This document shows, piece by piece, positions 10,571 through 59,780 of a stretch of 64,000 bases of DNA. Source of the DNA: Gracilaria domingensis (Eukaryota; Rhodophyta; Florideophyceae; Gracilariales; Gracilariaceae); the NCBI GenBank assembly GCA_022539475.1, contig VCMS01000039.1, positions 186,001 through 250,000 on the forward strand, given 5' to 3'. The stretch's first letter is position 1, and each line of letters begins with the position of its first letter. The notes beneath the pieces were generated by a model. It saw only the letters and a list, made by a program, of their open reading frames with translations. It was not told the DNA's origin and searched no databases. The position numbers were made by a program, and so were the translations under genes.

Positions 10571-11158
10571 TCAGATTTTTCTATGATTACATGGGAGGAT
10601 TTGTATGGACATGCAATACTTATATATGCATAAGCAGCAACGCATATCAGATATTGATTTTGTAATGTTGGAGAGATGTCGATTGCATGGCGGATTGGAA
10701 AGTGAACAAGAAATAAGTTAGGCAGTAATCGGTATACAAATCAGAAGAGTACATGAAAGAGATAATATATAGAACAGTAGAGTTGTCTTAGAAAGTAGTA
10801 TAAATAGGGTGGGTGCGGATACTACATGATTGACCTCCTCGGACAATCATCAAGTAAAAAGCAAATAACATCCAACTATCAGGAACCATCTCCGATGCGG
10901 GAGACCGCGCAACTGAGTTGCAACTACTTGTAGTAAGTTAACGAACCACGAAGCGTTATACACTAACCTTGCGTTTGTATCGACCTCTACTGCGTGTGGA
11001 ATCGACAGGTCCGTTCTACCGCAGCACCATTGGGTGCCGCATACCGTTCGCATCTGTGAGAATAAAGGACGTACGAAAACAGCCTCACTGGGGGCCGTGG
11101 ATACTGATCTTTATTGAATTGTCACCGGCTTCGAGCCGATTGAAGCCCAGGTTTCGAC
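10565..11158 (+). repeat. 5' LTR of the copia element
   Basis: Direct repeat of the 3' LTR from AGATTTTTCTATG (10573) to GGTTTCGAC. It carries a TATA-like TATAAATA near 10798 and an AATAAA near 11065. The bases after the LTR (AGTTATAACTGTGCAGC) would be the primer-binding region; I cannot assign a tRNA. Confidence 0.9.
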
Positions 11159-11218
11159 AGTTATAACTGTGCAGCTGTTAAGGTTAACCGCAATTGTAAC
11201 ATTTACCTGGACTACGTA

Positions 11219-17285: not shown

Positions 17286-17694
17286 AAAATGAGGAATCAG
17301 CAGAGATAACAGTCTGGAGGACGGGGTTGACACCTTTTTCTACGCCACAGCTCGCGCGACTTAATATAGGCAAGGGTAACACCAGGTCATTTACACCAAC
17401 CTTGCTCGCTGCTACATATCGTGTGAATTACCAATTGCGGCAAGCGAAGCAAGAGATTCATGGCGAAAACTGCTTCCTTTCGCTGACGAGGCGACTGTTT
17501 CCTTTGGTACACAACGCATCAGCAATCTTTAGAAGCCTGTCATATTCAGATTTCTTACCTACAACGGTACAGCACCAGCTCAGTATAAAGCTCGGTTTTG
17601 CTGTTCCGCACCAGTCGTACTTTACCATTTCATCAGTACAGAGGACCATCTGGTGACCTTCTGGTCGTTGGTTCGCGTACCCCACATTGTAAAG

Positions 17695-18984
17695 ATGTCT
17701 GTCGTCACAGTTCATGTGCATATCTATTTGTCCGAAGCCCAGAATGATTCCGGCAGTTCGGCTGAGTATCAAAGTGAGGTGACCCTCATCAACCGGAGCA
17801 CCAAAGAGAAAGCAGAGAGCTGGAAGTATTCAAAGGTCAAAGACAACCGGAAGTACGACCCACCCCTTCTTCTGCAAAATGCGACCCATAAAGTTTACTA
17901 TGAAAAGGGACAGAAAGTCGTAGCGATTTTGAAGATGTTTGAGGATGATACTGGCACGGCTGGTGATGCTATGACAGAAGGGGATGACATCTGTTTCAAC
18001 GACACATATGAGTACGATCCGAGTGCACAGGAGCCGTACGTCAAGAAAAATTGGAAAGGGGTCTACGACAAAGGATACTACACCGTCCAGTTTGTGCCGC
18101 CCTCCGTGAAGAAAATTGTACCAGCAAGTGATAACCATACCAGAGAGCAGCCAGCCGGCGGGAACACCGTGCAGGCGTCCATGGCCAACAGCGTTTGGGA
18201 TGTGAATCATGATAACTTGGTGCAGATTGTGTTTGAGAAACCAATCTGCCCTGCACCAACAATCGTTTGTTCACTTCAAGGGTTTGATATCGATGCCCCT
18301 CGTCTGAAGATAGAGCAGGGAAATGTCAGCTCCACCTCTTGCGCAATCCGTCTTCAAACGTGGTCCAATTCGATACTGTATAATATGTGGTGTGGCTGGC
18401 TTCCGATCCACACCTCCCCAACGTTGCAAACCGGTTCCTGGAGTACGCATGACGTTCGGGACTGGACCGATAATAACCGCACGAAGACAATTGGCCAAAT
18501 TCAGTTCGCAACAGCGTTTAAGACCACACCACGAGTGGTTGCCATGCTGAACGGATTCGATAGCTGCAGACATCGTGTCATCCGTATCGAGCTGGAGGTA
18601 GCGAACGTCAGCAAGGACGGGTTTACTATCGTTGTGAGCAAATGGGGTAATACGCATCTGTCCTCAGCAGATGTGACATGGGTGGCGACTACCGAAGATT
18701 CAAGCAAGGTAGCCATGGGTTATTGGGACAGTCGTTCTGTTCGATCATGGAGAAATGCTGTAAAGCGTACTTCGTGCGGCGTGGAATTTAAGCCGAAGTT
18801 TGCTTGTACGCCGCGCGTGTTGACGGGGTATGCTCGCCTTGATGCGGGCAAAGGAAAGGAGGTGTTTAGAAGTCATTGCATTCCGAGTGACATTTCTGAA
18901 TCTGGCTTTACTGCTAACGTGGCGACCTGGGGCGACAGCATTGTGTACGCTGGTAAGATTGCGTATGTGGCCATGATCGCCTAG
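17695..18984 (+). CDS. Protein with three H-type lectin repeats
   Basis: 429 residues from the ATG at 17695 (AAGATGTCT context; the upstream in-frame GTG is less likely). The N-terminal 150 residues look like a beta-rich domain I do not recognise. Three H-type lectin repeats follow at about 177-245, 265-335 and 360-429. Each has a short strand, then a hydrophobic PxIVxxLxGFD or PRVVAMLNGFD core, and ends in FTxxVxxWGxS...ADVTWVA-like sequence. H-type lectins bind sugars such as GalNAc in snail, Dictyostelium discoidin and gorgonian proteins. There is no signal peptide, so the protein may be cytosolic or exported unconventionally, as discoidins are. A role in self/non-self or cell adhesion would be inference. 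Confidence 0.85.
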   Translation: MSVVTVHVHIYLSEAQNDSGSSAEYQSEVTLINRSTKEKAESWKYSKVKDNRKYDPPLLLQNATHKVYYEKGQKVVAILKMFEDDTGTAGDAMTEGDDICFNDTYEYDPSAQEPYVKKNWKGVYDKGYYTVQFVPPSVKKIVPASDNHTREQPAGGNTVQASMANSVWDVNHDNLVQIVFEKPICPAPTIVCSLQGFDIDAPRLKIEQGNVSSTSCAIRLQTWSNSILYNMWCGWLPIHTSPTLQTGSWSTHDVRDWTDNNRTKTIGQIQFATAFKTTPRVVAMLNGFDSCRHRVIRIELEVANVSKDGFTIVVSKWGNTHLSSADVTWVATTEDSSKVAMGYWDSRSVRSWRNAVKRTSCGVEFKPKFACTPRVLTGYARLDAGKGKEVFRSHCIPSDISESGFTANVATWGDSIVYAGKIAYVAMIA

Positions 18985-19149
18985 TTTGTATCTGGGATTG
19001 TTATGTAACCGATCGATTCCGATAAGCGCCGCTTTGCGGAGAGGTGCGGGAAAGTTGACACATATTATGTACGATAAACGTAGGACAGCAGCTGCCGCAG
19101 ATAACTGGGAGCCAATGACTCGGGCGAGTCTTACCACCTCAATGTCGAT

Positions 19150-19894
19150 GGTCCATCGCACAGTATCACATTCACGCGCGCGTTTGCTGCTGCACCAGAG
19201 CAAAAGAGAGGCGCTTGCCGCCATCGGCAACGAAAAAGAAGCCGACCCGGGAGCCGTGGCACGCGCGCTCGGCGGGGCCGAGCCACAGGCGACGGTCGCG
19301 CGAGGCGCGCAGCCGCAGCGCCGTGGCGTCGTCGAGCACCGCGTCCGTCCACGCCGTGCGGCGCCGCGCCAGCAGCCGGGGCGCCGCGCGCAGCGCGAAG
19401 CGCGAAGCGGTGCGTGGCCACGGCCGCCGCCACGTCGCACAACGCCAACACGTCGCGCTCCACCGCAAACGCCGCGCGCGCACCGGCGGCCGACAGCGCC
19501 ACGCACTCGACGCGCTCCGCGCGCGCGCGCAGCGCGGCGCCCTGGCCGACGCGCGCGCCGGCGCGCGTGTCCCACACGCGCACGCGCCGCGCGCCGTCGC
19601 CTGACGCGGCGCGCGCGCCGTCGGCGCTCGGCGCGACGCTCCACCCGTCGCCGCCGCGGCGCGGCGCACGTGCCACACGCGCAGCGCGCCGTCGGCGCTG
19701 GACGACAGCGCGCACACCGCGTCGGAGTGCACGCGCAGCGCCTCCGGCCGAGGCGCGCCGCTGGCGCCGTGCCACAGCCGCGGCGCGCCGTCCTTGAACG
19801 CCGACGCGATCCACCGCCCGTCCGCGCTCACGCACACGCAACAGTGCAGGAGGCGGTTCACACTGTGAACCGCCTCCTGCACTGTGAACTTCAC
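19150..19894 (-). pseudogene. WD40 pseudogene, GC-rich, with at least two frameshifts
   Basis: Reading leftwards from 19894: CVCVSADGRWIASAFKDGAP and SADGALRVWHV in one frame; then WSVAPSADGARAASGDG, RRVRVWDTRAG and VECVALSAAGARAAFAVERD in a second; then DDATALRLRASRD and RRLWLGPAERA in the first again. These are successive WD40 blades broken by at least two frameshifts. The right edge lies in a perfect inverted repeat (19841-19885). The start of a gene and any NB-ARC part are missing. Codon use is extremely GC-rich, like the last blades of the gene at 1596-5508. Confidence 0.8.
19841..19885. repeat. Perfect 22-bp inverted repeat with a 1-base centre
   Basis: Left arm 19841-19862 (starts ACAGTGCAGGAGG), centre C at 19863, right arm 19864-19885. 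All 22 pairs match. It overlaps the 5' edge of the WD40 relic. Confidence 0.97.
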
Positions 19895-19899
19895 AGGCG

Positions 19900-21860
19900 A
19901 AAGACCAAGACGTGCGGGGAGGTATGGCTAAGGTTAGAGATCATTTTCTAGCGTTAACGTGCCATGATGGCCACGCGTACGACGTTGCCGAACCTTACAG
20001 CAATTTGGCGTTCATTCGAAGTCACCTGCAGAGACGGACGACTGGGATTGGGCATGCGGAAACAGTGGCCTGTTGATTGACAGAAGGGTGCGTGTATTAC
20101 GTGTACATAGTGTAAGGGAACCAAGTGAGCTACGAGAAGCTATTCGAGAGACATCCGAATGGATTTGTGTGAGGCACTCGGCACGCGATGTATTGTTGTG
20201 CCTGGCAAGGACAGATGCATACGTGTTCTAGTAGAACACGTTTGCATGACGGGAAATGTCTCGCCGCCTTCACAAGATCCGCGCCCTCGCAGAGATCAAC
20301 TCTCGATCGCTCCTCCGACCTTCCCAACACTCCGAAACTTCGCTCCCCTGAGTAGCTCCCCTCCGCACGATGGAAAAACGCCAAAAGCTCTCCGCCGCCG
20401 GCCGCCTTATCGCCAAGTCGCGTTTGCCTCACAAACGCGAACCGATCGCAAGCCACCCAAACGCTCTCCACAGCTGTCCGTCTTTCCAAGCAAATCATAG
20501 ACGACGGAAGGAACGAGTCTGCCGCTGAACCCGCTTTTCTCGACAGTAAGCATATTTCTCCTCTTCTCTACGGAATCTGGTCGGCATTGCAGCAAGCAAT
20601 CATCACAGGCGTTTATCAAACTTTAAATCGCAACGCCTGTCTGGTATCGTGTCGCATGGCTCACGGACTTTCCTTCTGTCAGCGATATCCCGTGGGTTGC
20701 CACAACCGCAAAGCCGTCCATTCAACGCAAGTGCCTCGTCGCGCTTCGAAAGTACCTGGTAGCTGTTGCGAAGCCGTCGCAACCGCGCCCAACACTGCGA
20801 TGGCGGATCATCTGATCCACAGTGTTCCACATGACGAGCTATGTTCACCTGCAGTTCAGCTCCGATCGCGGGAGGATGAAATGTCGCACCTTAATCGCCG
20901 ATAATTGCCATGATTGATTTGATGTATCCGAGCATCGCGGGTGGCCTCGGTCTGGCTCGTAGGTGTCTCTGCTCTCGCAGTCTTCCACAGAATTAACTTC
21001 CGCCCAAATAAAAGTTTTGTAAACAAATTGTTTTCGGCCAATTTCGCTTTTTTTTCAAGGTTCCACAAGGAACCCAAGTAGCCTGTTCACTCGCTCCATC
21101 GCAACTCAACCCACGTAACCAAATACGTGTAGCGATATCATCGAAAATCCGCCTTTGACTTTGGAAGCGGGATGACCAGATCGCGCGATTGCCATCTAGA
21201 ATGCTGCCGCGGCAGTCTTGGGTAAACAGGTCTCACCCGTCTCAAGTGGTGCCGTGCCGTGCTATGCGACGCAACCTCCTTCACGCCAGTAACAGCAATT
21301 GCGTGAAGGTGCACTTGTCGAACTATCGCCAACGTTGACGTGTGCACAAATCGTTTTCCAAGCTCTCGGCTTGCATTCTTACCACCTCCAAACCTCCATT
21401 GTTTTGACCCCATCCCTTTACAGCTAATGATGATGCAATCCAGGCCCTGCTTATGAGAATATTCACTGCAACTTTGAACATAATTTCCAACTGCAGAGAG
21501 TGTCCAATTCAAGGATGATATTATACACGTCCTTCACTCTGCTACACAGTTCAGGAGCTACAATCAAATTGGGAAGACATTGCTTCCGTTGAATCACTCC
21601 TTGTCAAGATACCAAGCATTGAGTGGTGACCATACCTGTCAGTCAACGTTGCCCGCCTAAAACAGAGGTACGCATTTAGAAGGCAGTGCAGCATTAGAGC
21701 TTCAACTCAGCAACATATGTTTATCTCGATTCAGTTTTTGTAACGTGGGCTCTGCTTGAGCCAAGGGCCACATACGATTCTACAGTAGAGCTATTAGTGT
21801 AGATTGAATGGGAAAGCGCAACCAGATGAGTGGTACTTAACTTTCGTCTTCCCCCACTTG
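19900..21860. other. Gene-poor stretch
   Basis: Open frames up to about 120 codons occur on both strands (for example 20130-20498 and 21138-21512 minus, 20587-20904 plus). None shows a domain, signal peptide or relation to other sequence here, so I do not call them genes. Confidence 0.45.
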
Positions 21861-30203: not shown

Positions 30204-32758
30204 TTATTCGACCTCGGTCATTTTAACGCTCTCAGCAAACAACAGCTTCATGCCAGCTTCCACGAAGCCGTCTTCTCCAATCACATCTCTGTCACATCCG
30301 TGTTGCGTCAGCAATTGGTCCACTTCCGCCTCATTCCATTCTCCTCTTGTCCGTCGAAAAGACAACTTGCAGTTTGAACTGCATTGAAAGCCCGATTCTC
30401 TGAACAATTGACGCAGAAGCTCCTTGGCGACAAACAATTGCAGCTCCGAGTCCGGCATGGTGGCGGTCCGGAACCTCTCGCAAAGTTCCACGGGAACTTC
30501 TGGCCTCCTTGATTTTGGATACATCTTCTTTAGAACGGAAAGAGCCATCAAGAATGATTCAAAGCCAAGGCGACCAGTCCTCATGTTTGCTTGTTGAATA
30601 ACCACTTCTTGGACATCCTCGGGTTTCACATCCTTCTTCAATCGCTTTTGAAGCATGTGATTCAGCTCCTCGATAGCGTCGTTTGCTCGTACTGTTTCCA
30701 GGTTGCTTGAAGAAGCCAAAGCATTGAACCGTTGGCGCAACTCCGTTTCTTCGTTGCTTGATATTGGCAGCGACTTCTCCTCCTCCTCGAGCTCCATTAT
30801 CATCTCTTGTACATGCTGTTGAAGACTTGGAAGCGATTGGAAATCGCTCTGCTGCACTGCACACTCCACTCTCTGTTGAATAACAGGATCCAGGGTATTC
30901 AGGAATTTCTTGCTTGTGAGCACGCCAATGCTTCGATAGTTGCTTAAATCAACCGATAACAACTCTGATACCACAAAGGCCGCTCCTGAGAACGCGTTCT
31001 CGACTTCTACCCCAAACAACACCTCCGTCGCAGCAAATGCGCCTCCAGAGAGTGCTCCACCAATGACGGGGATCATGCTCAGACAAATCCCAAGAAGCAT
31101 GGCAATGGTTCTGTTCCGCTGATGCTTCCGCAACACAGCATGTAGCTGATTCAAACTCGTACTCATATTCTGCAAGTCTTTCACCACCTGTTCATGTCCA
31201 TTACATACCATACGAAACTGTTCCGCCGTCTCTTTGGTCCACTGCTCTAGTTTTTGGACACGATGATCCAGGAAGTCAATTTTGCGAGCAAGTTTGACGA
31301 GAGCTGATTGCAGTTGCAAGTTGGTGTCCCGAATTTCCGATCGCAATTCGGCAACAACCTTGACACAAAAGTGGCATGCCCGTCCCGAATAAAGCCTACT
31401 TTCTCTGCATATGTCAAGATTCGACAAACGAAGAACTTTTGCTCCTGAGACAGGTTCAACTTGGTAACAGGCAGATACACTTGCTCTAGAACAAAGTCTC
31501 GATTTCCAGACAGAAATCGTACTTCTCTCCATCCAATCACTCGTAGGCGAATAGCAAGCAAGAGTAGATTGTGAGCTAGGACGAAATTCTCAAATGACGT
31601 GATGTAGTCGCATTTCAGAGCAGTGAGAAGGTCAGAGCGAGACAGGACCGATCCTTTTGCCTGGATCCACAGCGTTTCTAAACGTGAGGAAGAAGGAGGG
31701 AGATTGACGGAACAGAGCTTTCTGTAGAGCTCGCTGTTGTTCGGGAGCATTGAGAGCGCGCTCTCGCCTTTGTTGTTCTTCTTTGTCGGATCCGCTCCAG
31801 CTGCGAAGAGCCGAAGGGCAACAGCTTCCTGCTTCTGACGAACTGCATATATAAGAGACGTATCTCCTTCATTGTTTCGCCAATCGACATCAAAACAAAG
31901 TTCCAGAAGCTGGTCGACTATTGCAGCATGCCCGTTGTAGGCCGCGAATATCAAGGCAGTATTGCCATATTTGTTGGCGTGGTTTACGTCCGCATTTGCT
32001 CGCAGCAGTTGGTCTACCGCTGCAGAGTGACCGTTCTTGGTTGCGATCAGCAATGCTGTGGTGCCATCTTCCCTCATGTGATCCACTTTGGTACGTGCTC
32101 GCAACAGTTGGTCCACTACGGCAGAGTGCCCATTCTTAGCCGCCTGCATCAACGCGGTGGATCCCGTTCCCCATGCAAGATTAACGTCTGCGTTCGCTGC
32201 CAACAACTGCTGAACGACTGAAAAATGCCCGTTTTGAGCGGCAAGAATCAACGCGGTGACACCATCTTCTTTTGACTGATCCACTTTGGCTTGTGCTTGC
32301 AACAGTAACTCCACCACGTCCGAGCGGCCTTTCTCAGCTGCCAAAAGTAACGCGCTACATCCCCTCTTGGTGACAATGTTCACGTCGGCGTTTGCTTGCA
32401 ACAGCTGGCCCACAACTGCGGCGTGTCCGTTCTGAGCGGCCTGAACCAGTGATGTGGAACCTGTTTCCCACGCGTGATTGACATCTGCCCTTGCTTGCAG
32501 GAGCTGTTCTACAATCTGCAAGTGCCCGTTCTGAGCGGCCATAATCAAGGCGGTGCACCTTTGATACCCCACATGGTTTACTTCGGCTTTTGCCTGAAGC
32601 AGCTTGTGCACTATTGCGGAATGGCCGTTTTGAGCGGCAGCAATCAGTGCAGTGGACCCGCGTTCGTTTTCGGCATTGACCCGCGCTCCTTTTCGTAACA
32701 AACAAGTGACGGTGGGCAAGTCTCCATTGAGAGCAGCAGTGAACAAAGATGGAGGCAT
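30204..32758 (-). CDS. Ankyrin-repeat protein with coiled coil and Gly-rich hydrophobic segment (frameshift inside)
   Basis: I start at the ATG at 32758 (MPPSLFTAALNGD). About ten 33-residue ankyrin repeats follow (TALIxAAQNGHxxVVxQLLxAxADVN) to about residue 360, then a helical region (YITSFENFVLAHNLLLLAIR). At 31361-31370 the frame breaks: the ankyrin frame runs to a stop at 31247, while real-looking sequence continues in the other frame (KVVAELRSEIRDTNLQLQ). An extra GT in a GTGT run explains the shift. The second part has a coiled coil, then a Gly/Ala hydrophobic stretch (LLGICLSMIPVIGGALSGGA) like a glycine-zipper membrane helix, then acidic helices to the stop at 30204. Total would be about 850 residues. 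Ankyrin repeats bind proteins. The Gly-rich segment suggests membrane insertion, as in HeLo- or MLKL-type cell-death effectors; this is inference. It could be two adjacent genes instead, but the fit at the break argues for one. Confidence 0.78.
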
Positions 32759-32877
32759 ATTGTGTTCTTTCGACGCAAGAAGCAGAACGTATGAGGGCGG
32801 ACCAAAGAATCTGTTACTCGGCACACGCACTCGGACAGAGGGCAAGTACGCAACAATGGATAATTGTTGGCGGCAAC

Positions 32878-33180
32878 AAGTTTCGTCGTGGTTGCACGTG
32901 CATATTCTTTACAGTGGCCCAGAAACGTGTCGGTGGCATTCTGGCCACGTGTACGAGTTTAAAAATCTCGCACGTGTTCCGTGGCTGTCGGCGGACGGTG
33001 ATGTGGCTCTGGCGTTGTGTTCAAGAGGAGAACTAGAGAGGCGTCAGGCTCTTGTTGTAACTAGACACGTTCGGCTGCCAACGCGAATTCTCTCTCTTGC
33101 TGCGTTGGATTGTCGCTACATGCATGTCTGTACCAAAACCAGAGGTAGCTCGCTCCGAAGAGCAACGCACGAGTGACCGT
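32878..33180 (+). pseudogene. Fragment of the secreted Cys-rich gene (cassette copy A)
   Basis: The stretch GTTCCGTGGCTGTCG, GACGGTGATG, CCAACGCGAATTCTCTCTC and GCTCGCTCCGAA matches the 3' end of the gene at 40141-40755 in order. The protein frame keeps VPWLSADGD but has lost the cysteine pattern. It lies directly 5' of a Cys-rich membrane gene, as the intact gene does at 40-41.8 kb. Confidence 0.75.
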
Positions 33181-35116: not shown

Positions 35117-38100
35117 CTATCGCACAATTCTGCAGGTGCGAAAAAACGACGACCAGTACCTGCCGTCACCGGCCAAGGTCTGCACCTCTGTCTCGCATGT
35201 AGCCAGTGTGATCCCAGGGCCACCGTTGGAACGGTCGCACACCTCACGCGAATGCGGCCGCCACACATACGACGACCATGACAGGTCGAGCGCATCCACG
35301 GTAGACTGCCATGCAGCCTCATCTGAAGTGAGCACACACTTTCCAGCGCTCGCATCCCACACTCTTCCTAAACGAGACCAATCGAACGAAACAATCTGAG
35401 AACCCTGAGCACCCACCCCAACGCGAGTTACAGCGCCACTATGCTGAAGCGGTGCCCCAAGCGCTTTCCCGTTCACTACGTCCCACACCCTCACTGTCTC
35501 GTCCAAAGACCCTGACACAGCCCGACTCCCATCGCTGCTTATCGCCACACACCTCAACGAATCGGTGTGACCTTCCAGCGGCGGCCCGATTGCCTTCGCG
35601 TTCACCACGTCCCACACCCTCACTGTCTCGTCCGAAGACCCTGACACAGCCCGACTCCCATCGCTGCTTATCGCCACACACTCCACCGTACGGGTGTGAC
35701 CTTCCAGAGGCGGCCCGAGTGCCTTCGCGTTCACCACGTCCCACACCCTCACTGTCTTGTCCAAAGACCCTGACACAGCCCGACTCCCATCGCTGCTTAT
35801 CGCCACACACTTCACCAACTCGGTGTGACCTTCCAACGGCGGCCCGACTGCTTTCCCGTTCATTAAGTCCCACACCATCACTGTTTTGTCGTTCGACCCT
35901 GACACAGCCCGACTCCCATCGCTGCTTATCGCCACACAGTTCACCGTACGGGTGTGACCTTCCAGCAGCGGCCCGATTTCCTTCGCCTTCACCACGTCCC
36001 ACACCCTCACTGTCTCGTCGTCCGACCCTGACACAGCCCGACTCCCATCGCTGCTCATCGCCACACAGTTCACCCAACTCGAGTGACCATCCAGCGGCGG
36101 AGGGATTGCCTTCGCGTTCACCACGTCCCACACCCTCACTGTCTTGTCCAAAGACCCTGACACAGCCCGACTCCCATCGCTGCTTATCGCCACACAGTTC
36201 ACCATAGAGGTGTGACCTTCCAGCGGCGGCCCGATTGCCTTCGCGTTCACCACGTCCCACACCCTCACTGTCTTGTCGTAAGACCCTGACACAGCCCGAC
36301 TCCCATCGCTGCTTATCGCCACACAGTTCACCGAACCGGTGTGACCTTCCAGCGGCTGCCCGATTGCCTTCGCGTTCACCACGTCCCACACCCTCACTGT
36401 CTGTTCCCAAGACCCTGACACAGCCCGACTCCCATCGCTGCTTACCGCCACACACTTCACCCCAGCTCTGTGACCTTCCAGCGGCGGCCCGATTGATTTC
36501 GCCTTCACCACGTCCCACACCCTCACTGTCTTGTCGTCCGACCCTGACACAGCCCGACTCCCATCGCTGCTTATCGCCACACAGTTCACCGTACGGGTGT
36601 GACCTTCCAGCGGTTGCCCAACAAGTTCACCACTTTCCGTCTTCCAGATTCGAATCCGGTGATCCCAAGTCTCAGAACACAGTCTACTCCCACCGTTGCA
36701 GAACGAGATGAAACTCTCTCCTACCCCAAATTGTCCCATTTCATCACTTTCATCGCTTTCTTCACATTCTTCACTTTTGTCCTTATCCAACAGCCCGCAA
36801 AAACAGCTCTTCAGTGCTCCAAAACGTTCACCCTTCCCACCGTGCCATCTTGGAGAAAGCCGCGAGTCATCACGTGCACCAAATCCCTGGCACAGTACAA
36901 CCCTCTGCATTCTGCCGGTTTCTCTGTTCCAGAAAACAATCTTGCCGTCCCTGTACGCCGTCGCCACGCTTTTGCTATCTGACAAAAAAGCACTGCACCA
37001 CGGCCGTGACAGCAAATTCTCTTGTCCTTCTTCAATCACGAATTCTCGCGATTTGAAAACACCAGTGGTCTGGTTATATCGTCCAACGCCCATAGACTCG
37101 TTGCCATAGCCACGCCTCCAGAAAAACCAGATTTCATCCAGCTCCATACTAACGCAGGTCACCCTTCCCGGGTTCGGTATAGTATCTAGTCCGGCACCTC
37201 CTGCTTGCTGCAAGAACCCCAAAGATGCTTTCACCCATGGTCTCGGTGCACACTCTTCGATTTTTTCCACGAACTCCCTCGTCTTCTCGCATTGCCCAGC
37301 GTGCCACAATAGGCGCCCATACAGTTGGAACCAAACCTCACGCGGATTTTCGCTAACATAAACACTGCTCATTCGCGCTGCCTTCCCAATCACTTCCAGA
37401 TATTCTGCGTGACTCGAATGTCTGCCTGACTTGTCGTCTGCGATCGCTTTCCCATGCCTTAGATCTTGTTCCACTTTGTAAATTCCTCCTCTCAACAGAC
37501 GTCTCTCAATCCACTGTGGCTGTGACAACAGCCAAAGCAGTTCGTCAATGTGCCCCGCACTCCGAAGTGTTCTACACACGTTGTCGTAAATATATCCATC
37601 ATTATCACAGTTCCACCACTCCCGGAACATGAACGAATTGCCGGTATCTGACTCACCCGCAACCCTTTGATACGATACATGCTGTGAATCTGAGGACGTC
37701 GCCAAGTGATCCCCTGTTGCAGTTTGGGTAAATTTCTCCTGTGAACCAGTCACATCAGACACTGACATATCCATTCTTTGCTTCCTCCCATCAAGTGGCA
37801 GGTAGTTGTCAATGAGTGTCTCAAACATTTTCTGAGTTTGGTAGTTCTTTGACGCTTCATAAACGGCAATATCCAAAATCAAATCGTGCAAGTGCACAGA
37901 AATCAAACCACCCTCACTCCTCATCTCAATCACTGAAGCATCAGCAAAAGCATCCGCGATCATCCTAGCCTCCTCTAAGCACCCCAAACTCCACAGCTTC
38001 TGCAGCATGCAAATCGGAACAGATTGCTGTTTTTGAACAACACAAAACGCCCGAAACCGTTCACGAAACCTTTCCTCTCCACTGTGCTTCTCCAGAACCT

Positions 38101-39385
38101 CCAAAGATATGCCCACAAGCTTCGACAGCTCACCATACTGCCCAGCGGAATACTTGAGCAGTCCCTCGTTGTGCGACTCCATATCATGGCGAAACTCTGA
38201 CCAAGCGTCTTGTCTCTGATTCGGACAAAGATCCGCATACTTGTACACCGCACGCCCAGCAATTCCCAACCCAAGTGGAAGTCCTTGGCACTTGTCCAGA
38301 ATCGCTTCGAGGGCGCTCCTGTTCTTCTCGTCCAGCACCGCATCTCCTTTGAAATCAGCGTGTCTCATCAACATTCGTCGTGCCAATTCGCCACGCGTCT
38401 CCTTCTCCGTGAATTCAATCTTTTCGTCCGTTTCACCCACAAACCTTCTGTCCCTGGTGGTGTACACCAGTCGGCTGCGTTTGTTCACCAATGCTCCAAG
38501 AATGTTGAACACGTCGGAGTCAATATCGTTCACCATCCATATATCATCAACAAGAAACAAACACTTGTGATCAGCAAACCAAACCGAGGCCTTTCTTGAG
38601 GCCTCCTGCAACGTCTTGGCCAGTCTAATTTCTTTGGCCAAACTGGAACCCCCTGTGCATTCCACAATATCAGCAATGCCTTCTTGCAGGTCGGCTACAC
38701 TCGCGTCGTTTCCAAGCTGAATGTACAGGATTCCTCCATCAAACTCATCCCTGATTCCACAGCACTCTGCAAGCCCTCGCAAAGCGCATGTCTTTCCCAC
38801 CCCACCTTTTCCAGTAGCAAGAACGGCCACTATGGGGCCTGCTGCCTGGTCTAGAATAGCAGCTTTCAACTGACCTTCAGATGTTTCGGTTGTGTCATAA
38901 TCGAGAGTGAGTCGAGGTGGATTCAGTGGGACGTTGCTGCGACCCTTGCAAAAATTTTCACCCTGATTCGGTGCCGGCTCTCGAAGTATCGGAGATACAG
39001 TACCATCCAAGAAGTCAGCAACTTGGTTCAGGTTCTTTTCGCACTCCTGCAGCATATCGTTCATTCGCCTGACTCTCTTTGTGGCGTTCGCGTCCTCGAT
39101 TTGCTTCTGCAATAAGTTGAGGGTGATAGCGTTCTTGTTCAAAAGTCTCTCATACCTTCGCAATTTCTCACACGTAAGCAAGTCCAACGCTGAAGGGGGT
39201 TGCATAAGCAGTTCGCCAAGGATACCTTGCGCAATAGAGTTCTCTTCTTTCAGCCATTCAAGCTTGTCCTTATTGTCCTCAACAAGATCCTTGCGTTGAT
39301 ACACTCTCTTCGCAAACTTTTCCAGCGTTTCTACCAAGGCAAGTCCGGTCTCTATTCCAGTGGCTACTGTAGCAACAACTTCCAT
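35117..39385 (-). CDS. NB-ARC-WD40 (NLR-like) protein with nine near-identical WD40 repeats
   Basis: 1422 residues, uninterrupted. I start at the ATG at 39385 (MEVVATVATGIETG), which matches the N-terminus of the paralogue at 1596. The upstream open frame is Cys/Ser/Thr-rich and not conserved. Parts: N-terminal helical bundle (1-130); Walker A GKGGVGKT near 190; kinase-2 FLVDDIW near 275; RNBS-B RLVYTTRD near 305; GLPLGLGI near 367; an LHD (MHD-like) near 497; helical linker with EECAPRPWVKAS; two or more divergent WD40 blades with an acidic insert (EECEESDESDE); then nine 43-residue blades (35444-36604) and a degenerate last blade. STAND NTPases of this layout act as ligand-triggered switches, with the repeat end sensing. 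A role in immunity or allorecognition is inferred. Every nucleotide-binding motif needed is present. Confidence 0.92.
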   Translation of the reverse strand: MEVVATVATGIETGLALVETLEKFAKRVYQRKDLVEDNKDKLEWLKEENSIAQGILGELLMQPPSALDLLTCEKLRRYERLLNKNAITLNLLQKQIEDANATKRVRRMNDMLQECEKNLNQVADFLDGTVSPILREPAPNQGENFCKGRSNVPLNPPRLTLDYDTTETSEGQLKAAILDQAAGPIVAVLATGKGGVGKTCALRGLAECCGIRDEFDGGILYIQLGNDASVADLQEGIADIVECTGGSSLAKEIRLAKTLQEASRKASVWFADHKCLFLVDDIWMVNDIDSDVFNILGALVNKRSRLVYTTRDRRFVGETDEKIEFTEKETRGELARRMLMRHADFKGDAVLDEKNRSALEAILDKCQGLPLGLGIAGRAVYKYADLCPNQRQDAWSEFRHDMESHNEGLLKYSAGQYGELSKLVGISLEVLEKHSGEERFRERFRAFCVVQKQQSVPICMLQKLWSLGCLEEARMIADAFADASVIEMRSEGGLISVHLHDLILDIAVYEASKNYQTQKMFETLIDNYLPLDGRKQRMDMSVSDVTGSQEKFTQTATGDHLATSSDSQHVSYQRVAGESDTGNSFMFREWWNCDNDGYIYDNVCRTLRSAGHIDELLWLLSQPQWIERRLLRGGIYKVEQDLRHGKAIADDKSGRHSSHAEYLEVIGKAARMSSVYVSENPREVWFQLYGRLLWHAGQCEKTREFVEKIEECAPRPWVKASLGFLQQAGGAGLDTIPNPGRVTCVSMELDEIWFFWRRGYGNESMGVGRYNQTTGVFKSREFVIEEGQENLLSRPWCSAFLSDSKSVATAYRDGKIVFWNRETGRMQRVVLCQGFGARDDSRLSPRWHGGKGERFGALKSCFCGLLDKDKSEECEESDESDEMGQFGVGESFISFCNGGSRLCSETWDHRIRIWKTESGELVGQPLEGHTRTVNCVAISSDGSRAVSGSDDKTVRVWDVVKAKSIGPPLEGHRAGVKCVAVSSDGSRAVSGSWEQTVRVWDVVNAKAIGQPLEGHTGSVNCVAISSDGSRAVSGSYDKTVRVWDVVNAKAIGPPLEGHTSMVNCVAISSDGSRAVSGSLDKTVRVWDVVNAKAIPPPLDGHSSWVNCVAMSSDGSRAVSGSDDETVRVWDVVKAKEIGPLLEGHTRTVNCVAISSDGSRAVSGSNDKTVMVWDLMNGKAVGPPLEGHTELVKCVAISSDGSRAVSGSLDKTVRVWDVVNAKALGPPLEGHTRTVECVAISSDGSRAVSGSSDETVRVWDVVNAKAIGPPLEGHTDSLRCVAISSDGSRAVSGSLDETVRVWDVVNGKALGAPLQHSGAVTRVGVGAQGSQIVSFDWSRLGRVWDASAGKCVLTSDEAAWQSTVDALDLSWSSYVWRPHSREVCDRSNGGPGITLATCETEVQTLAGDGRYWSSFFRTCRIVR
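35444..36604 (-). repeat. Nine tandem 129-bp WD40 units
   Basis: Each unit encodes one blade beginning GHT and containing CVAISSDGSRAVSGS and TVRVWDVV, with unit length constant at 129 bp. Units are almost identical except at the two residues after GHT (RT, AG, GS, SM, SW, RT, EL, RT, DS), the residue before CVA (N/K/E/R), the residue after SGS (D, W, Y, L, D, N, L, S, L) and the residue before TVRVW (K/Q/E). Confidence 0.95.
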
Positions 39386-41029: not shown

Positions 41030-41758
41030 ATGACGTCGTACGGCTCGACGCCTTCCGCGCCGCCCGCCGCGCCGCCGCCGCGGCCGTTGCCCCGCGCGCC
41101 GCGCCGCCGCGCCGTCGCGCTGGGCGCGACCGCGCTGGGCGCGCTGTCGCTGCTGCTGCTGGGCGTGTACTCCGGCGGCGCGCCCGCCCGCCCCGCCGCC
41201 GCCGCCGCGCCCGAGCGCGCGCGCGCCGCCGCCGACCTGCGCGCCGCCGCCGACCTGCGCTCCGCCGACGGCGCGCTGGCGCGCGTGCCGCACGCGCAGC
41301 TGCTCCGCGTGTTCGGCAGACACGCGCACCACGCGCCGCACCACGCGCACCACGACCACCACGACCACCACCACGACCACCACCACGACCACCACCACGA
41401 GCACCACGGCCACCACGACGGCGGCGGCGGGGCCGGCGGCTCGTTCTTCTCCGGGCCGCTGGGGCACCCGACGAGCCCGCGCGCGTTCAGCTACGCGTGC
41501 CACATGCCGCCGCTGCAGGCGTGCGCGGCCGCGTGCTTCGAGCAGGCGCGCGCCGGCGGCGACGACGGCGGCGACGGCGACGGCGACGGCGCGCCGCCGT
41601 GGCGCTGCCTGGCGCACTGCGGGCGCAACTTCTGCTTCGTGGTGGGCGGCTCGTGCGGTCAGGCACAGTTCGACGTGTGCGCGGGCGAGTGCGAAGGGCG
41701 CGACGCGCTGGTGCCGTGCGCCGAGGCGTGCTTCGACCGCGAGTGCCCGCTGGCGTGA
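41030..41758 (+). CDS. Type II membrane protein with His-rich stalk and Cys-rich domain (copy B)
   Basis: 242 residues from the ATG at 41030. Pro/Arg-rich cytoplasmic tail, one span (GATALGALSLLLLGVYSGGA), an Ala/Arg helix, then a His/Asp stalk (HHAHHDHHDHHHDHHHDHHH, about residues 103-135) that could bind metal ions. A Gly/Ser linker and the Cys-rich domain follow: YACHMPPLQACAAACFEQ, an acidic Gly/Asp insert, RCLAHCGRNFCFVVGGSC, FDVCAGECEGRD, PCAEACFDRECPL. Paralogues: 33335-33922, and relics at 33957-34240 and 50750-51225. Its stop lies 87 bp from the stop of the convergent vWA gene, an arrangement kept in the copy at 51 kb. The membrane orientation is predicted only. Confidence 0.78.
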   Translation: MTSYGSTPSAPPAAPPPRPLPRAPRRRAVALGATALGALSLLLLGVYSGGAPARPAAAAAPERARAAADLRAAADLRSADGALARVPHAQLLRVFGRHAHHAPHHAHHDHHDHHHDHHHDHHHEHHGHHDGGGGAGGSFFSGPLGHPTSPRAFSYACHMPPLQACAAACFEQARAGGDDGGDGDGDGAPPWRCLAHCGRNFCFVVGGSCGQAQFDVCAGECEGRDALVPCAEACFDRECPLA

Positions 41759-41845
41759 AAATGTTTTTGTAAATTCAAGAGTAGTTTTATTGTTGCCTTA
41801 CACGTAGCCACGTAGATCACGAGTACACGTGGTGTGGTTCGGCGC

Positions 41846-42496
41846 TCAGTTGCTCTTCTTCTCGCACTCGAGCACGCGCTCCTCGATGGCGTCCACCACG
41901 TCGAAGAACGCGTTCGCGCCGAACGTGGAGCCGCCGCCAGCCGCCGCGATGTCCTCCAGTACCGCCACCCTCGGCAATCCCACCCCAATCGTTTGCAGCC
42001 TTCCGCTGGCGCCGAAGCGATGGGCGAAGCGCTCGGCCGCCGCCACGGGGTCCTCCCCAGCCGTGTTGGCACCGTCACCCAGCAGAATCAGTTCCGTCGT
42101 GGCAAGGTCGCCAGCATTGGCCGCCAGCAGCTCCGCGCACCCCGAGATGCCCGCCCCGATGGAGGTGCGCGCCGCTTGCAGCGGCACCTTGCCGTCCAGT
42201 CGCGATAGGAATTGGTCGCTGTCTGCGGTGGCGTCCGAAATGGCAACGCTGCGGACGCCGTACTGAACGGCGGAGAAATATGCGGGCTTGAACTTGTCCG
42301 CAAGTAGGGCGGCCACGAGTGTAGCAGTGTCAAGTTGCTTAAAGAACGCATCGCTTCCCAACGAGGCGCTGCCGTCAAGCGCAAAGCAAACGATTGGGCT
42401 GCACTTACTGTCGCTCACTTCTGAATTCCTGATGATGGCGCCGGTGGCCATGCAAAAAGCCAACGCAAAGAGCACCAAACATTTTGAGGCGTTCAT
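41846..42496 (-). CDS. Small secreted vWA-domain protein, copy 1
   Basis: 216 residues from the ATG at 42496. Signal peptide (KCLVLFALAFCMATGA), then a single von Willebrand factor A domain. The metal-ion site (MIDAS) is complete: D-x-S-x-S in FALDGSASLG, the Thr in QAARTSIG, and the Asp in ILLGDGANTAG. vWA domains of this kind bind protein or matrix ligands through a divalent cation. A TATA box lies 105 bp upstream. It is nearly identical to the gene at 51292-51942: eight residue differences, and about 13 base differences by eye. Confidence 0.88.
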   Translation of the reverse strand: MNASKCLVLFALAFCMATGAIIRNSEVSDSKCSPIVCFALDGSASLGSDAFFKQLDTATLVAALLADKFKPAYFSAVQYGVRSVAISDATADSDQFLSRLDGKVPLQAARTSIGAGISGCAELLAANAGDLATTELILLGDGANTAGEDPVAAAERFAHRFGASGRLQTIGVGLPRVAVLEDIAAAGGGSTFGANAFFDVVDAIEERVLECEKKSN

Positions 42497-42601
42497 GTTG
42501 ATGGAGGCTTGGCACGGAGCAGTGGATCGGGCTTGGAGTGGCGTCGAAGCGTGTGAGTTGTGAGAACGGCTCGATGACGCTGCACAACATGCGGCGCACC
42601 C

Positions 42602-42609
42602 TTTTTATA
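42602..42609 (-). promoter_or_regulatory. TATA box of vWA copy 1
   Basis: Minus strand TATAAAAA followed by GGG, 106 bp before the ATG at 42496. It is identical in the duplicate at 52048-52055. Confidence 0.75.
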
Positions 42610-42890
42610 CACTTGCGGAGTGGCCTTAGCTTCGAGCTCCATCATTGCCTATCTTCCTGCTCCGGACAAAACGTATCATTGCCAGGAGGGCGCCTTGTTG
42701 GGGAACACATCATGGCATTTGCCGCTGCCATGAAGGATTCAACGCCACACCGCCTTTTCATTTACAAAAAAAGAAAGAGAATAGATACAAAAGAAAAAAA
42801 ATTGCATGTGAAGCTGCACTCGTGACTACGTTGTTATATAGTAAGTATACTTTTGAAGTAAATTTATAGCACTTGATACGTTTTTGGTTG

Positions 42891-50749: not shown

Positions 50750-51225
50750 CTAGCCAGCGCCGCCGCCGCAGCGCCTGCCCGCTACCGCCTTTTCCCACGG
50801 CCCCCCCAAACACCCGCGCCGTCGCGCTCGGCGCGCTGTCGCTTCGGCTGCTGGGCGCGTACTCCGGCGGCGCGTCCGAACGCGCCGCCGCCGGCCAGCG
50901 CGCCGCCGCCAACCTGCGCGCCGGCGCCGACCTGCGCTCCGCCGACGGCGCGCTGGCGCGCGTGCCGCACGTGCAGCTGCTGCGCGCGTTCGGCAGACAC
51001 GCGCACCCCGCGCCGCGCCACCTCGAAGGCCAGGCGCCGCACCCGCGCCAGCACCCGCACCCGCACCCGCACCGCCACCACCACCACGACGGCGGCGGCG
51101 TTCAGCTACGCGTGCCACATGCCGCCGTGGCGCTGCCTGGCGCACTGCGGGCGCAACTTCTGCAGGCGCCGTTCGACGTGTTGGTGCCGTGCGCCGAGGC
51201 GCGCTGGCGTGAAAATGATTTTAGA
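50750..51225 (+). pseudogene. Broken copy of the Cys-rich membrane gene (cassette copy C)
   Basis: It aligns with 41030-41758 from VALGA... through the span (LGALSLRLLGAYSGGA), RVPHVQLLRAFGRHAH and a shortened His/Pro stalk. The ATG and N-terminus are missing. The frame then shifts to FSYACHMPPWRCLAHCGRNF and back to FDVLVPCAEA. Two internal deletions within the Cys-rich domain (after CHMPP and after CGRNFC) remove most cysteines. The 3' end still abuts the convergent vWA gene. Confidence 0.87.
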
Positions 51226-51291
51226 ATTTCAAAAGTAGTTTTATTGATGCCTTACACGTAGCCCACGAGTACACGTGGTATGGTTCGGCGC

Positions 51292-51942
51292 TCAGTTGCT
51301 CTTCTTCTCGCACTCGAGCACGCGCTCCTCGATGGCGTCCACCACGTCGAAGAACGCGTTCGCGCCGAACGTGGAGCCGCCGCCAGCCGCCGCGATGTCC
51401 TCCAGTACCGCCACCCTCGGCAATCCCACCTCAACCGTGTGCAGCCTTCCGCTGGCGCCGAAGCGCTCCGCGAAGCGCTCGGCCGCAGCGACGGGGTCCT
51501 CCCCAGCATTGTTGGCACCGTCACCCAGCAGAATCAGTTCCGTCGTGGCAAGGTCGCCAGCATTGGCCGCCAGCAGCTCCGCGCACCCCGAGATGCCCGC
51601 CGCGATGGAGGTGCGCGCCGCTTGCAGCGGCACCTTGCCGTCCAGTCGCGATAGGAATTGGTCGCTGTCTGCGGTGGCGTCCGAAATGGCAACGCTGCGG
51701 ACGCCGTACTGAACGGCGGAGAAATATGCGGGCTTGAACTTGTCCGCAAGTAGGGCGGCCACGAGTGTAGCAGTGTCAAGTTGCTTAAAGAACGCATCGC
51801 TTCCCAACGAGGCGCTGGCGTCAAGCGCAAAGCAAACGTTTGGGCTGCACTTACTGTCGCTCACTTCTGAATTCCTGATGATGGCGCCGGTGGCCATGCA
51901 AAAAGCCAACGCAAAGAGCACCAAACATTTTGAGGCGTTCAT
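51292..51942 (-). CDS. Small secreted vWA-domain protein, copy 2
   Basis: 216 residues, signal peptide plus a vWA domain like the gene at 41846-42496. MIDAS residues are kept (DASAS, Thr in ARTSIA, Asp in LLGDGANN). Eight residues differ between copies. Roughly ten of about 13 base differences change the protein, including two-base changes within single codons (His to Glu, Thr to Asn). Promoter and TATA box are duplicated too, so both copies are probably expressed. Confidence 0.88.
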   Translation of the reverse strand: MNASKCLVLFALAFCMATGAIIRNSEVSDSKCSPNVCFALDASASLGSDAFFKQLDTATLVAALLADKFKPAYFSAVQYGVRSVAISDATADSDQFLSRLDGKVPLQAARTSIAAGISGCAELLAANAGDLATTELILLGDGANNAGEDPVAAAERFAERFGASGRLHTVEVGLPRVAVLEDIAAAGGGSTFGANAFFDVVDAIEERVLECEKKSN

Positions 51943-52047
51943 GTTGATGGAGGCTTGGCACGGAGCAGTGGATCGGGCTTGAAGTGGCGTCGAAGCGTGT
52001 GAGTTGTGAGAACGGCTCGATAACGCTGCACAACATGAGGCGCACCC

Positions 52048-52055
52048 TTTTTATA
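52048..52055 (-). promoter_or_regulatory. TATA box of vWA copy 2
   Basis: Minus strand TATAAAAA followed by GGG, at the same distance from the ATG as in copy 1. Confidence 0.75.
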
Positions 52056-52371
52056 CACTTGCGGAGTGGCCTTAGCTTCGAGCTCCATCATTGCCTATCT
52101 TCCTGCTCCGGACAAAACGTATCATTGCCAGGAGGGCGCCTTGTTGGGGAACACATCATGCCACAATTCGCTCCAAGTTGGCATGAACAAGAGCGAATGA
52201 GAACTGTGGCGGAACGAAGGTACCCGCTCGATTAGCCACTTTGATTGCCATGCGCGGCTGCCATGAAGGATTCCACGCCATACCGCCTTTTGATTTATAA
52301 AAGAAACTACGTTGTTATATACTAAATGTAATTTTGAAGTAAATTTATAGCTCTTAATGGGTTTTTGGGTG

Positions 52372-57310: not shown

Positions 57311-59780
57311 ATGTCGGAAAATATCTCCACGTCGCAGACGTTAACAGATGAGAGAGAAGCCGAATCGGCATCAAGCAGGCGAGCAAAAAAACGAAAATGG
57401 TACACAGAAGAACTGTTTGAATAGCGCACATACCTTGATGACGACAAAGATTATAACACTGGAGCAAAATATCTTACGTGCAAAAACATGTTCTTGGTTT
57501 AGCACAGCAAAAGTTGTGAACGCATCGAAGCTCGGGGAACACTTGCTTCGGTGTAAATGAGTTTCGAGAGAAAATCGTCGTCGCTTACTCGAAGATCCTC
57601 GTCTTCAGACAATCAATCGAGAAAAAATAGACACAGAAGGTTCTGATCTGTTTGGTATTCCGATAACTTCGATAGTAGCAAAGAGGCGCAAACTCACCGC
57701 CCCTGTTGTGAAGATTGAACGAAGACCTCTCCTACCTCACCCTCGTTCTGCGCCGGGATCTACGCTCGTCGAGTTTTCACAATTCAACACTCACCATTCG
57801 GGAAGTGACGAAAGTCTGAGCTCTCGAGATCGTCGATCACAATTCAATGATCTAGTCACACGCTTTTTTGTAAAGTACATGCTACCGTTTTCTCTTTTGA
57901 GTCGCAGAGCCGGTTGTGATGAGTTTTATCAAATAATTCGATTGGCGAACTATAAAATCAGCAAACGGCTTCCCGATGCGCAAACAATGGGCTCAAAGAA
58001 CATTAACATTTACTACGATACTATGCACAGTCGTGTGAAGGAATCAATTGCCGCTTCGCTGAAAGATTCTTTTGGCACGCTCGTTTTCGATGGATGGACA
58101 GATGCAAACAACGAAGTCGTAAATGTATTGCTTTCTCTTACGGGAGTAGAAATTGTGCAAAAGACCTTTTTCATGAAGTCTATATACACAGGATCCACGA
58201 CATGCGATTCTTCTTTTTATGCAAAGGTTATTGAAGAGACAATGTTGGAGTTTGGTGACATGAACCGAATTTGCGCTGTCGTGAGTGAAAATAAAAGCTC
58301 ATGTGTGAAGGCTAAAGAAAAACTCTTCGAGAGGCACAATCACATGATCAGTTGCCGAAATCAGACCGATTTGGCTAACCTGCTCATGCAGGATATGAGT
58401 AAATTGGTTTGGATCAACAACATACTGTCAATGGTGGCGGCAGTGATCGCGGATCTTCGGAACCATCCAAAGCTCTACCATCGCTTTAAAGAGCTTAAAA
58501 CACAATTCAATCTGAGGACTGATCGTCTTCGATCTTCGGGCGAACTAGACGAATATGGAAGAGTTCTGCTCCCTCCGATTGCAATTCTTCCAACAAAAAT
58601 GGCTCAAACAGGGTTTGGATCATCTGAAAGCATGATTGCTTCATTCTTGAGATGCAAAACAGTGTTACGAGAGCTTATTGAGTGCTCTGACTTTCATACT
58701 AATCTGTATGGCTCTCGAAACAGGGAAAAGAGGGAGGTTTTCAAAGCAACAATACGTAACGACGCGCTATATGAGAAACTATTGGACATCTACCACATCT
58801 TTCTTCTTATACGCCAGTACCTGAGAATCTTTGACGACGAGTCTTCGCTCCTTTCAGAAGTTTACCCGGCCACTATGCAACTTTTAGAAAAGATCAACAA
58901 GCTCCCAGTCACGGCTTTCTATACTGTTGAGAGAAAGGAAGAAATTGTTAACCTCTTCAAAGAAAGAATGAATGGGGAGGGGCGGAAAGTGGCGTTGGTG
59001 ACTCCCATACACTATGTCGCGTACACGTTGGATATCAGAAGCCTCTCCGAAAGCTTGGCGCATTTTCGTCCTCATCTCGTGAAACATGTTCTCTCCTTTG
59101 TGCGATCGGATTGCTTCCGGGCTAGTGAAAAGGTAACTAGTGTAGGTGGTGAATGCGGAACGGTTGATCGAATATGTAAGGAGTTCGTTTCTGTGCGCAT
59201 GGCGTGGCGCTCACAGATGCAAGACCCGGTTTCAAGGCATTCTTTAATGATGTATAGTCGAACGCCGGTATACTATTGGATTGAGTACCCAAAGGCATCC
59301 CTTCTCCGTCAGTTTGCGCTTCGGGTTCTCTGCGCCAGTGCACCATCGTCCTCCGTCGAGCGTAGTTCCAGCTTCCGAGGTCGCCTTAGAACATCTTCAC
59401 GTAACCGGTTGCAACAGAAGAAAGTGGCAAAGTTAATATTCTGTGCGTTCAATGAGTCTCTATTTCAAACTCGCAACAGAACTGTCAAGAAACTAGATCT
59501 GGAAGAGTACACGGAACGTAGGTTCGGTAATGCACGCCAAACGATGGACCCGGAATTAGCAGACCCAGAAACGAGTGGGGGGTGTACTCTAGGTTTTTGG
59601 ACGACGAGAGCATTTCTCTTGATATGTCCCACGATTTGTGTGAAGAGCTTGAATTAGATGAGCTGAAGAACTGGGAGTCTGCTTTTGTCTCTACCTCTGA
59701 GGCAATTCAGATGCTTCAATTTCGTCTGTTCGAAGGAATACTTTACTTCTCGTACCTTTTCTTCTTCTTTGCTTGTTTGT
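57311..59780 (+). pseudogene. hAT-family transposase, damaged at both ends
   Basis: The main frame 57708-59657 encodes about 650 residues: the DUF659-type segment (FGTLVFDGWTDANNEVVNVL, about 125-145), the RNase-H-like core, and the C-terminal hAT dimerisation region (YYWIEYPKASLLRQFALRVL, then SSSVERSSSFRGRLR). Upstream from the ATG at 57311, a Lys/Arg-rich start and BED-finger-like pieces (YLTCKNMFLV, LGEHLLRCK) lie in frames broken by stops. At the 3' end, a run of six G (59577-59582) moves the acidic tail (SRFLDDESISLDMS) into another frame. The tail overlaps the convergent gene that ends at 59743. Confidence 0.85.

Follow-up and report, generated by a model that had tools for sequence, protein, structure and literature searches.

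Near-identical WD40 blades with a few hypervariable columns in an NB-ARC receptor-like gene of a red alga

How might a protein keep the blades of its propeller almost identical and yet change the same few residues in each of them? The question is raised by a gene on the reverse strand (positions 35117..39385) of a 64,000-nucleotide (nt) stretch of Gracilaria domingensis DNA (contig VCMS01000039.1, positions 186,001 to 250,000; hereafter the window), which encodes a receptor-like protein joining an NB-ARC switch to a WD40 array. An earlier note, made from the letters of this stretch, had described nine nearly identical 129-bp WD40 units whose changes gather in the same few columns, and had proposed concerted evolution combined with diversification at surface positions, as in the fungal HET-D/HET-E proteins. 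With a probability of roughly 0.66, in our estimate, the protein is a cytosolic receptor of the NOD-like (NLR) type whose propeller is homogenised by exchange and whose diversified top-face contact residues form a target-sensing face. We regard the gene as a good candidate for rapidly evolving recognition outside fungi. The parts of the gene, all on the reverse strand, are as follows (aa, amino acids):

35117..39385, reverse strand: whole coding sequence of the NB-ARC/WD40 receptor-like protein, 1422 aa in one frame with no internal stops
38981..39385, reverse strand: N-terminal helical domain, aa 1-135, with helices at 2-28, 32-60 and 69-126 in a low-confidence model
38246..38827, reverse strand: NB-ARC nucleotide switch, aa 187-380 (Pfam PF00931, E 6.3e-12, 45.7 bits against a cut-off of 23.5)
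37871..38065, reverse strand: APAF-1-like winged helix, aa 441-505 (PF21296, E 0.0033, under the curated cut-off)
37418..37606, reverse strand: APAF1_C helical region, aa 594-656 (PF17908, E 0.0007, 20.0 bits, under the cut-off of 22.8)
36614..37168, reverse strand: divergent blades preceding the array, aa 740-924, about three by reading
35453..36613, reverse strand: nine homogenised 129-bp WD40 units (unit 1, 36485-36613; unit 9, 35453-35581)
35120..35452, reverse strand: divergent blades following the array and the C-terminus, aa 1312-1422, about two blades by reading

The nine units of 43 aa are consecutive, beginning at aa 925, 968 and so on to 1269, and stand in register without a single insertion or deletion (indel); Tandem Repeats Finder recovers the same array from the DNA (period 129 bp, 8.9 copies, 88% matches, no indels). 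Mean pairwise identity among the units is 88.4% for nucleotides and 79.6% for amino acids, each unit is exactly 129 bp long and no two are identical. Pfam WD40 (PF00400) matches nine stretches of the protein (E 4.4e-98), the first divergent blade after the array gives a weak 8-bit unit match, and by reading the blades total about 14 (about three, nine and about two). The open frame extends upstream to 39676, and the segment that begins with the ATG at 39385 is homologous to the beginnings of paralogues. Long frames in other phases also run across the array (35439-36626, reverse strand, 395 aa; 35332-36207, forward strand, 291 aa), which need not be genes because the 129-bp period produces them.

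Exactly four columns of the unit carry four or more residue types (four to six each), namely 7 and 8, the two residues after GHT, 10, before CVA, and 26, after SGS. Three types occur at column 28, before TVRVW, and likewise at columns 6, 14, 40, 41 and 43, while columns 11-25 are codon-identical in all nine units save for columns 14 and 25. The concentration of changes described in the earlier note is therefore real, with column 28 carrying the fewest residue types of the positions that it had named. Columns 8, 10, 26 and 28 combined are enough to distinguish all nine units, and columns 7, 8, 10, 26 and 28 distinguish all 40 units of five genes of the family as well as 60 of the 61 units of eight genes. 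That eight-gene set includes a tenth, divergent match in the gene under study, so that its numbers for this gene differ from the nine-unit figures; partial units and units with indels were dropped from it (five of seven in a second copy of the gene in the window, one each in the paralogues L003, L004, L005 and L006, and two in L008), and the two remaining units of the second window copy were excluded from its per-gene counts.

Variation at these columns is not equal to that at third codon positions. Among the nine units, mean heterozygosity at codon positions 1/2/3 is 0.55/0.58/0.33 in columns 7, 8, 10 and 26, 0.43/0.11/0.32 in columns 6 and 28, and 0.06/0.04/0.10 in the remaining 37 columns. 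In column 8 the codons of units 1-9 read ACG, GGG, TCG, ATG, TGG, ACG, TTG, ACG and TCG, so that the third base is G throughout and only the first two vary; in column 7 the third base is T in eight of nine units. These codons bear on whether a mutational hotspot or targeted hypermutation could create the variable columns with no selection on the protein. Such a process would fit the confinement of variation to a few codons, the proportion of synonymous differences (pS) that is likewise raised there (0.21 vs 0.10) and the third bases of L002, L004 and L008, which vary about as much as the others at these codons. Mutation alone would not, however, spare the nearly fixed third bases of columns 7 and 8 while the first two bases change, and we consider this explanation highly improbable.

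Counts of substitutions show a contrast when the columns are taken as a group. By parsimony, non-synonymous (N) and synonymous (S) changes in the nine units number 31.5 and 2.5 in columns 6, 7, 8, 10, 26 and 28 and 21 and 11 elsewhere (Fisher p 0.004). The contrast is 95/10 vs 87/74 (6e-11) in the 24 units of this gene, L002 and L003, and 187/29 vs 230/238 (1.5e-22) in the 40 units of five genes obtained when L004 and seven L008 units are added. The six-column set was picked after seeing both the fungal positions and the variation in this gene. Identity, pS and parsimony used in-phase core units only (seven of nine matches in L002, eight of ten in L003, nine of 12 in L004), and the parsimony set took seven of 11 L008 units and left out L005, L006, L007 and the second window copy. 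For columns 8, 10, 26 and 28 as a group, the ratio of the proportion of non-synonymous differences (pN) to pS is 2.43 in this gene, 2.18 in L002, 1.71 in L003 and 0.85 in L004; outside the hot columns of our array it is 0.57.

Where on a propeller would these columns lie? Top-face contacts of WD40 proteins have been assigned to R1, within the (V,L,I)-R1-R2-(V,L,I) bulge, to R1-2, two residues before it, and to D-1, before the Asp of the DHSW tetrad (PMC3419727). In our unit (V9, x10, C11, V12; D27), R1 corresponds to column 10, R1-2 to column 8 and D-1 to column 26, in agreement with the surface diversification that had been proposed for the locus. This placement rests on the hotspot rules because a propeller model built from the single sequence had a mean predicted local distance difference test score (pLDDT) of 36. 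In HET-D/HET-E the strongest positive selection acts on codons 7, 9, 25 and 27, paired around conserved residues 8 and 26 (PMC1805685), and columns 8, 10, 26 and 28 here flank the conserved V9 and D27 with the same 18-residue spacing. Since that spacing is identical, the fungal and algal columns can be matched by position. The six columns richest in non-synonymous changes in our gene (8, 7, 26, 28, 10 and 6, in that order) all fall among the seven het-d/het-e positions with a high ratio of non-synonymous to synonymous rates (10, 11, 12, 14, 30, 32 and 39; offset -4). The hand-computed chance of the top six of 43 columns lying inside a given seven is about one in a million, a figure that ignores the general variability of WD40 proteins at these positions.

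Near-identical blades need not vary in this way. In the control propeller 2ymu, which like the cyanobacterial WRAP proteins shares near-identical blades with our protein, all blades but one have, in the printed alignment, two serines at columns 7-8 and an aspartate at column 26. Its blades vary mainly at one contact column, 10, whereas ours vary at four to six. Because 2ymu is conserved at columns 7-8, homogenisation alone does not produce the pattern of variable columns seen here.

Units of the array also differ from one another less than the gene differs from its paralogues. With the six columns masked, pS among the nine units is 0.098; for the codons of the NB-ARC and helical parts, pN/pS is 0.075/0.258 against L003, the closest paralogue, and pS is 0.354 against L002. 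As array pS lies below paralogue pS, the array seems to have been re-homogenised after duplication. The nearest relative of a unit lies in the same gene for 9/9 units here, for 6/7 in L002 and for 9/9 in L004, and none of 5000 label shuffles of three close genes reached the observed within-gene closeness. These results uphold the concerted evolution claimed from the sequence at the outset. The last units are alike across genes (unit 9 here has 11 differences from unit 8 of L003 and 13 from unit 7 of L002), as if the ends of the array exchanged less.

The exchanges themselves have left traces in the sequence. In L005 a tract of about 240 bp with four mismatches runs across unit borders, beginning and ending inside the neighbouring units. 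Units 3 and 7, within it, are separated by a single difference in 129 bases, against 18 to 46 for the remaining unit pairs of equal offset; the tract looks conversion-like and would move variable cassettes. In our gene, units 4 and 7 are identical over 90 bp (columns 11-40) yet not at columns 7, 8 and 10; for units 1 and 6 the identity covers 73 bp (columns 1-25), and column 26 differs. Both cases suggest that the two variable patches of a blade recombine. GC content at third codon positions is higher in the array than in the upstream part in 9/9 genes (0.56-0.78 vs 0.43-0.59), where the upstream part is short for L003 and L007 and the array of the second window copy amounts to two units. We infer that GC-biased gene conversion would give such a rise. 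At the level of sequence, these comparisons demonstrate a propeller whose repeats are kept alike by intragenic exchange while the top-face contact residues of each blade diversify.

An ordinary recent amplification offers a plainer account, in which the blades were lately copied and their differences are neutral drift at places where WD40 proteins vary anyway. Near-identical blades do arise repeatedly by amplification (PMC9218822), array pS is only 0.10, and the spread of R1 residues (PMC3419727) agrees with variation at top-face positions. We also take such variation to be general among WD40 proteins. Yet the non-synonymous excess is concentrated in contact columns, and homogenised 2ymu keeps the columns that change most here. 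Moreover, paralogues that split before our units diverged hold arrays of the same 129-bp units (seven in L002, eight in L003), which makes it more likely that an old array was re-homogenised than that an array was made once. It seems unlikely, therefore, that amplification and drift suffice.

The gene belongs to a large family. A six-frame search of the 77.9-Mb assembly (680 contigs) returned at least 32 loci, this one included; the true number will be higher, because scoring covered 33 of 400 candidates and the list lacks the second window copy, at 1410-5396. Family-wide statistics were based on seven paralogue loci and on that second copy. In 14 loci the match starts between query residues 1 and 17, in the other 18 between 126 and 180; L007 and L008, the only members read among the late-starting 18, both begin with a TIR domain (TIR_2, E 7e-16 and 1.3e-16). 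A TIR start is found in two of the nine members read, and the N-terminal helical domain is common to seven of nine (in L003 its first 72 residues only). Two of nine members read thus carry a different N-terminal domain on the same NB-ARC-WD40 body, and more such cases are likely. Array lengths differ as well, with seven units in L002, eight in L003, nine in our gene and in L004, and at least ten in L005 (one excluded from the statistics). Three copies of the family lie within 17 kb on contig C220. The loci C104:5455-8790 and C494:14731-18066 have equal match scores and equal stop counts, and may be one locus assembled twice. A single prokaryote genome scan gave one distant locus (L009, in a metagenome-assembled genome of Lewinella sp., 28%), which was not used.

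Within the window, the second NB-ARC-WD40 gene (1410-5396, forward strand) has a related N-terminal helical domain (34% identity) and blades that are less alike; its last part is GC-rich, does not read as WD40 and is perhaps out of frame. A further GC-rich segment (18745-19940, reverse strand) shows WD40-like motifs by eye in its frames and is perhaps a remnant of another repeat array.

Could the array be an artefact of assembly, collapsed or expanded, or the gene be dead? Near-identical repeats are hard to assemble, in-frame stops occur within the matched parts of nine of the 32 loci, and L003 is broken. Here, by contrast, 1422 codons are open and nine exact 129-bp units include no identical pair, and pN lies below pS both outside the hot columns and in the NB-ARC/helical part, so that constraint has acted on this gene. 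Artefact or decay is accordingly a remote prospect for this locus.

Upstream of the blades, the NB-ARC switch that had been read from the sequence was recovered by Pfam as listed above. Its motifs by reading are GKGGVGKT at aa 192, LFLVDDIW at 276, LVYTTRD at 306 and GLPLGLG at 368, with an MHD-like HLHDLILD at 498, outside the PF00931 match; we take these motifs to have their customary NB-ARC meanings. The N-terminus is less readily placed. Pfam gives no match at cut-off for aa 1-135, a profile search of PDB gives a best E of 0.17, and Foldseek finds no match at E <= 0.001 to the AlphaFold2 model, which was built from a two-sequence alignment and has low confidence (mean pLDDT 66.9); any comparison with four-helix bundles (HeLo, the MLKL four-helix bundle, plant coiled coils) rests on this model. 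We regard the domain as a candidate signalling or death domain. No TIR match was found by Pfam in this protein, nor any NCBIfam match.

The linker invites comparison with Apaf-1. The order of NB-ARC, winged helix, helical linker and WD40 is that of Apaf-1 and of the APAF1_C/WD40 proteins of Ulva and other algae (PMC8891106), and Apaf-1 is among the nearest solved sequences, so that the gene might be an Apaf-1-like death switch for development or stress with a fixed internal ligand. The likeness of winged helix and linker rests on weak matches under curated cut-offs. Unlike those proteins, ours belongs to a large and diversified family and begins with a helical domain that has no Pfam match at cut-off, and at least 32 loci (nine with in-frame stops) together with blade diversification do not resemble a single conserved switch. 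We judge a fixed-ligand switch to be improbable.

The closest parallel in mode of evolution is found in the HET-D, HET-E and HET-R proteins of Podospora anserina (HNWD/NWD), which share with our gene an NTPase switch joined to a WD40 sensor. They also share with it very similar repeats homogenised by exchange, codons that diversify at matching places in the blade and a unit number that varies between genes (seven, eight and nine here). The likeness holds for the columns and does not extend to kinship. HET and NACHT families gave no match at E up to 1 to aa 1-662, a range in which HMMER filters drop most matches above about 0.1 and in which NB-ARC was matched; since neither HET nor NACHT matched, the gene is not a member of HNWD, from which it differs also in its NB-ARC and its weak Apaf-1-like linker matches. 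Nor are near-identical blades peculiar to fungi, as they occur in cyanobacteria and many other lineages (PMC9218822). Judging from the sequences, this gene very probably diversifies like HET-D/HET-E without belonging to their family. Homogenised and diversified repeats have been published for fungal NLRs, and high internal conservation was reported for 0.4% of all ANK, TPR and WD repeats in green plants, 0.8% in animals and 1.2% in Dikarya (PMC4986451).

In domain order our gene agrees with the NB-ARC-WD40 proteins of Chondrus crispus and Pyropia yezoensis, which also form a large family with TIR in some members, as here; our protein has helices where the TIR-NB-ARC-WD40 red algal proteins carry TIR. 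Chondrus crispus has 61 NB genes, of which 58 are NB-WD40 and 23 of these 58 have TIR (PMC7145615), and red algal NB-ARC-WD40 genes are treated also in PMC9806590. In Pyropia, three NB-ARC+WD40 genes increase by more than 1.5-fold when Pythium infects (PMC6928737). The parts of these three accounts available to us describe no homogenised or hypervariable blades, and we found no report of homogenised, diversified blades in red algal NB-ARC-WD40 proteins among the papers listed from the mostly open-access literature.

These parallels bear on what the propeller might sense. Allorecognition, a special case of the receptor that we favour, would have it respond, once cells have fused, to variant forms of a self protein, in the way that HET-D/HET-E sense HET-C. 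The columns shared with het-d/het-e and a similar mode of repeat turnover would suit this, but no HET or NACHT domain was found and the Pyropia response to Pythium points to pathogens instead; allorecognition as the specific function is possible though rather unlikely. Sensing of pathogens or parasites is our default assumption for the function of the receptor.

Several observations weigh against the receptor interpretation as a whole. Single-column binomial tests among units of this gene were not significant (best p 0.09), so that the signal of selection was found for the columns as a group; in three genes column 7 gives p 0.045 and in five genes columns 10 and 7 give 0.017 and 0.032, uncorrected. 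The raised pS of the variable columns, given above, counts here too. Parsimony counts presume a tree, which recombination breaks, and changes are not independent between recombining units. In older arrays pN at the hot columns is not above pS (L006, 0.62/0.61; L008, 0.64/0.76); the contrast there lies in constraint on the rest of the unit and not in an excess of pN over pS at the hot columns. The nearest unit lies in the same gene for only one of eight units of L003 (two more are tied), and exact tracts between our units are partly expected given the uniformity of the array. The low pLDDT of the propeller model has been mentioned, and the N-terminal fold is no closer to the coiled-coil domains of plant NLRs than to unrelated bundles, with FAT, vinculin tail and designed bundles matching the model at a Z similar to that of the plant NLR coiled coil. 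All of the evidence comes from one assembly and is of sequence.

If the protein is nonetheless such a receptor, it would signal through its N-terminal helices, be switched by an NB-ARC joined to a helical linker like that of Apaf-1, and sense with a WD40 beta-propeller. Gene conversion and unequal crossing-over might spread small cassettes of contact residues (columns 7-10 and 26-28) and recombine them while the scaffold stays fixed. New binding faces could then arise fast with the fold unbroken, and selection would retain those faces that bind useful targets. A non-self or modified-self protein on the propeller face might then release or open the NB-ARC, and opening could lead to oligomers that gather the N-terminal helices (TIR in sister genes) and to a defence or cell-death output. 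The likeliest targets would be proteins of pathogens or parasites, with allorecognition possible.

The window holds other features of note. An ankyrin-repeat protein with ten 33-aa units lies at 31247-32908 (reverse strand); the idea that its repeats evolve under the same regime as the WD40 array was rejected, as eight of the ten units share 52% aa identity and are not homogenised. The next frame, 30204-31589, encodes a hydrophobic, glycine-rich stretch that Pfam leaves unmatched at E 0.01. A secreted-looking VWA-domain gene (41846-42604 and 51292-52050; the Pfam search covered the first) lies in each of two 95%-identical copies of a stretch (41707-42700 and 51162-52146) that are about 9.4 kb apart. 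A protein with three H-type lectin stretches (17533-18984, forward strand) shares the window with the receptor genes. Mobile elements are represented by a Copia-like retroelement over two frames (11144-16182, forward strand; rve and RVT_2 domains in the first) and by a hAT-like transposase (57561-59657, forward strand) with DUF659 and a hAT dimerisation region just under cut-off. An ARAGORN call of tRNA-Gly at 41273-41350 (reverse strand) stands beside GC-rich tandem repeats and may be spurious.

Rapid diversification through homogenised yet hypervariable WD40 blades has had its genetics worked out in one fungal family. If our interpretation is true, the recurrence of these columns and of this regime outside fungi, on an NB-ARC chassis of Apaf-1-like type, would point to a solution that has been reached repeatedly, one that provides variable recognition without somatic recombination. 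More tentatively, and with somewhat less than even confidence, we propose that a probably multicellular red alga has independently made an Apaf-1-like NB-ARC-WD40 family, with TIR-NB-ARC-WD40 members, into an evolvable and anticipatory recognition repertoire, in which conversion shuffles two contact patches per blade across dozens of genes that police cell fusion or parasites. Red algal parasites transfer nuclei into host cells by cell fusion, a process to which receptors of this kind would be directly relevant in a red alga. The gene is a candidate for how a seaweed-like organism could distinguish self from non-self.

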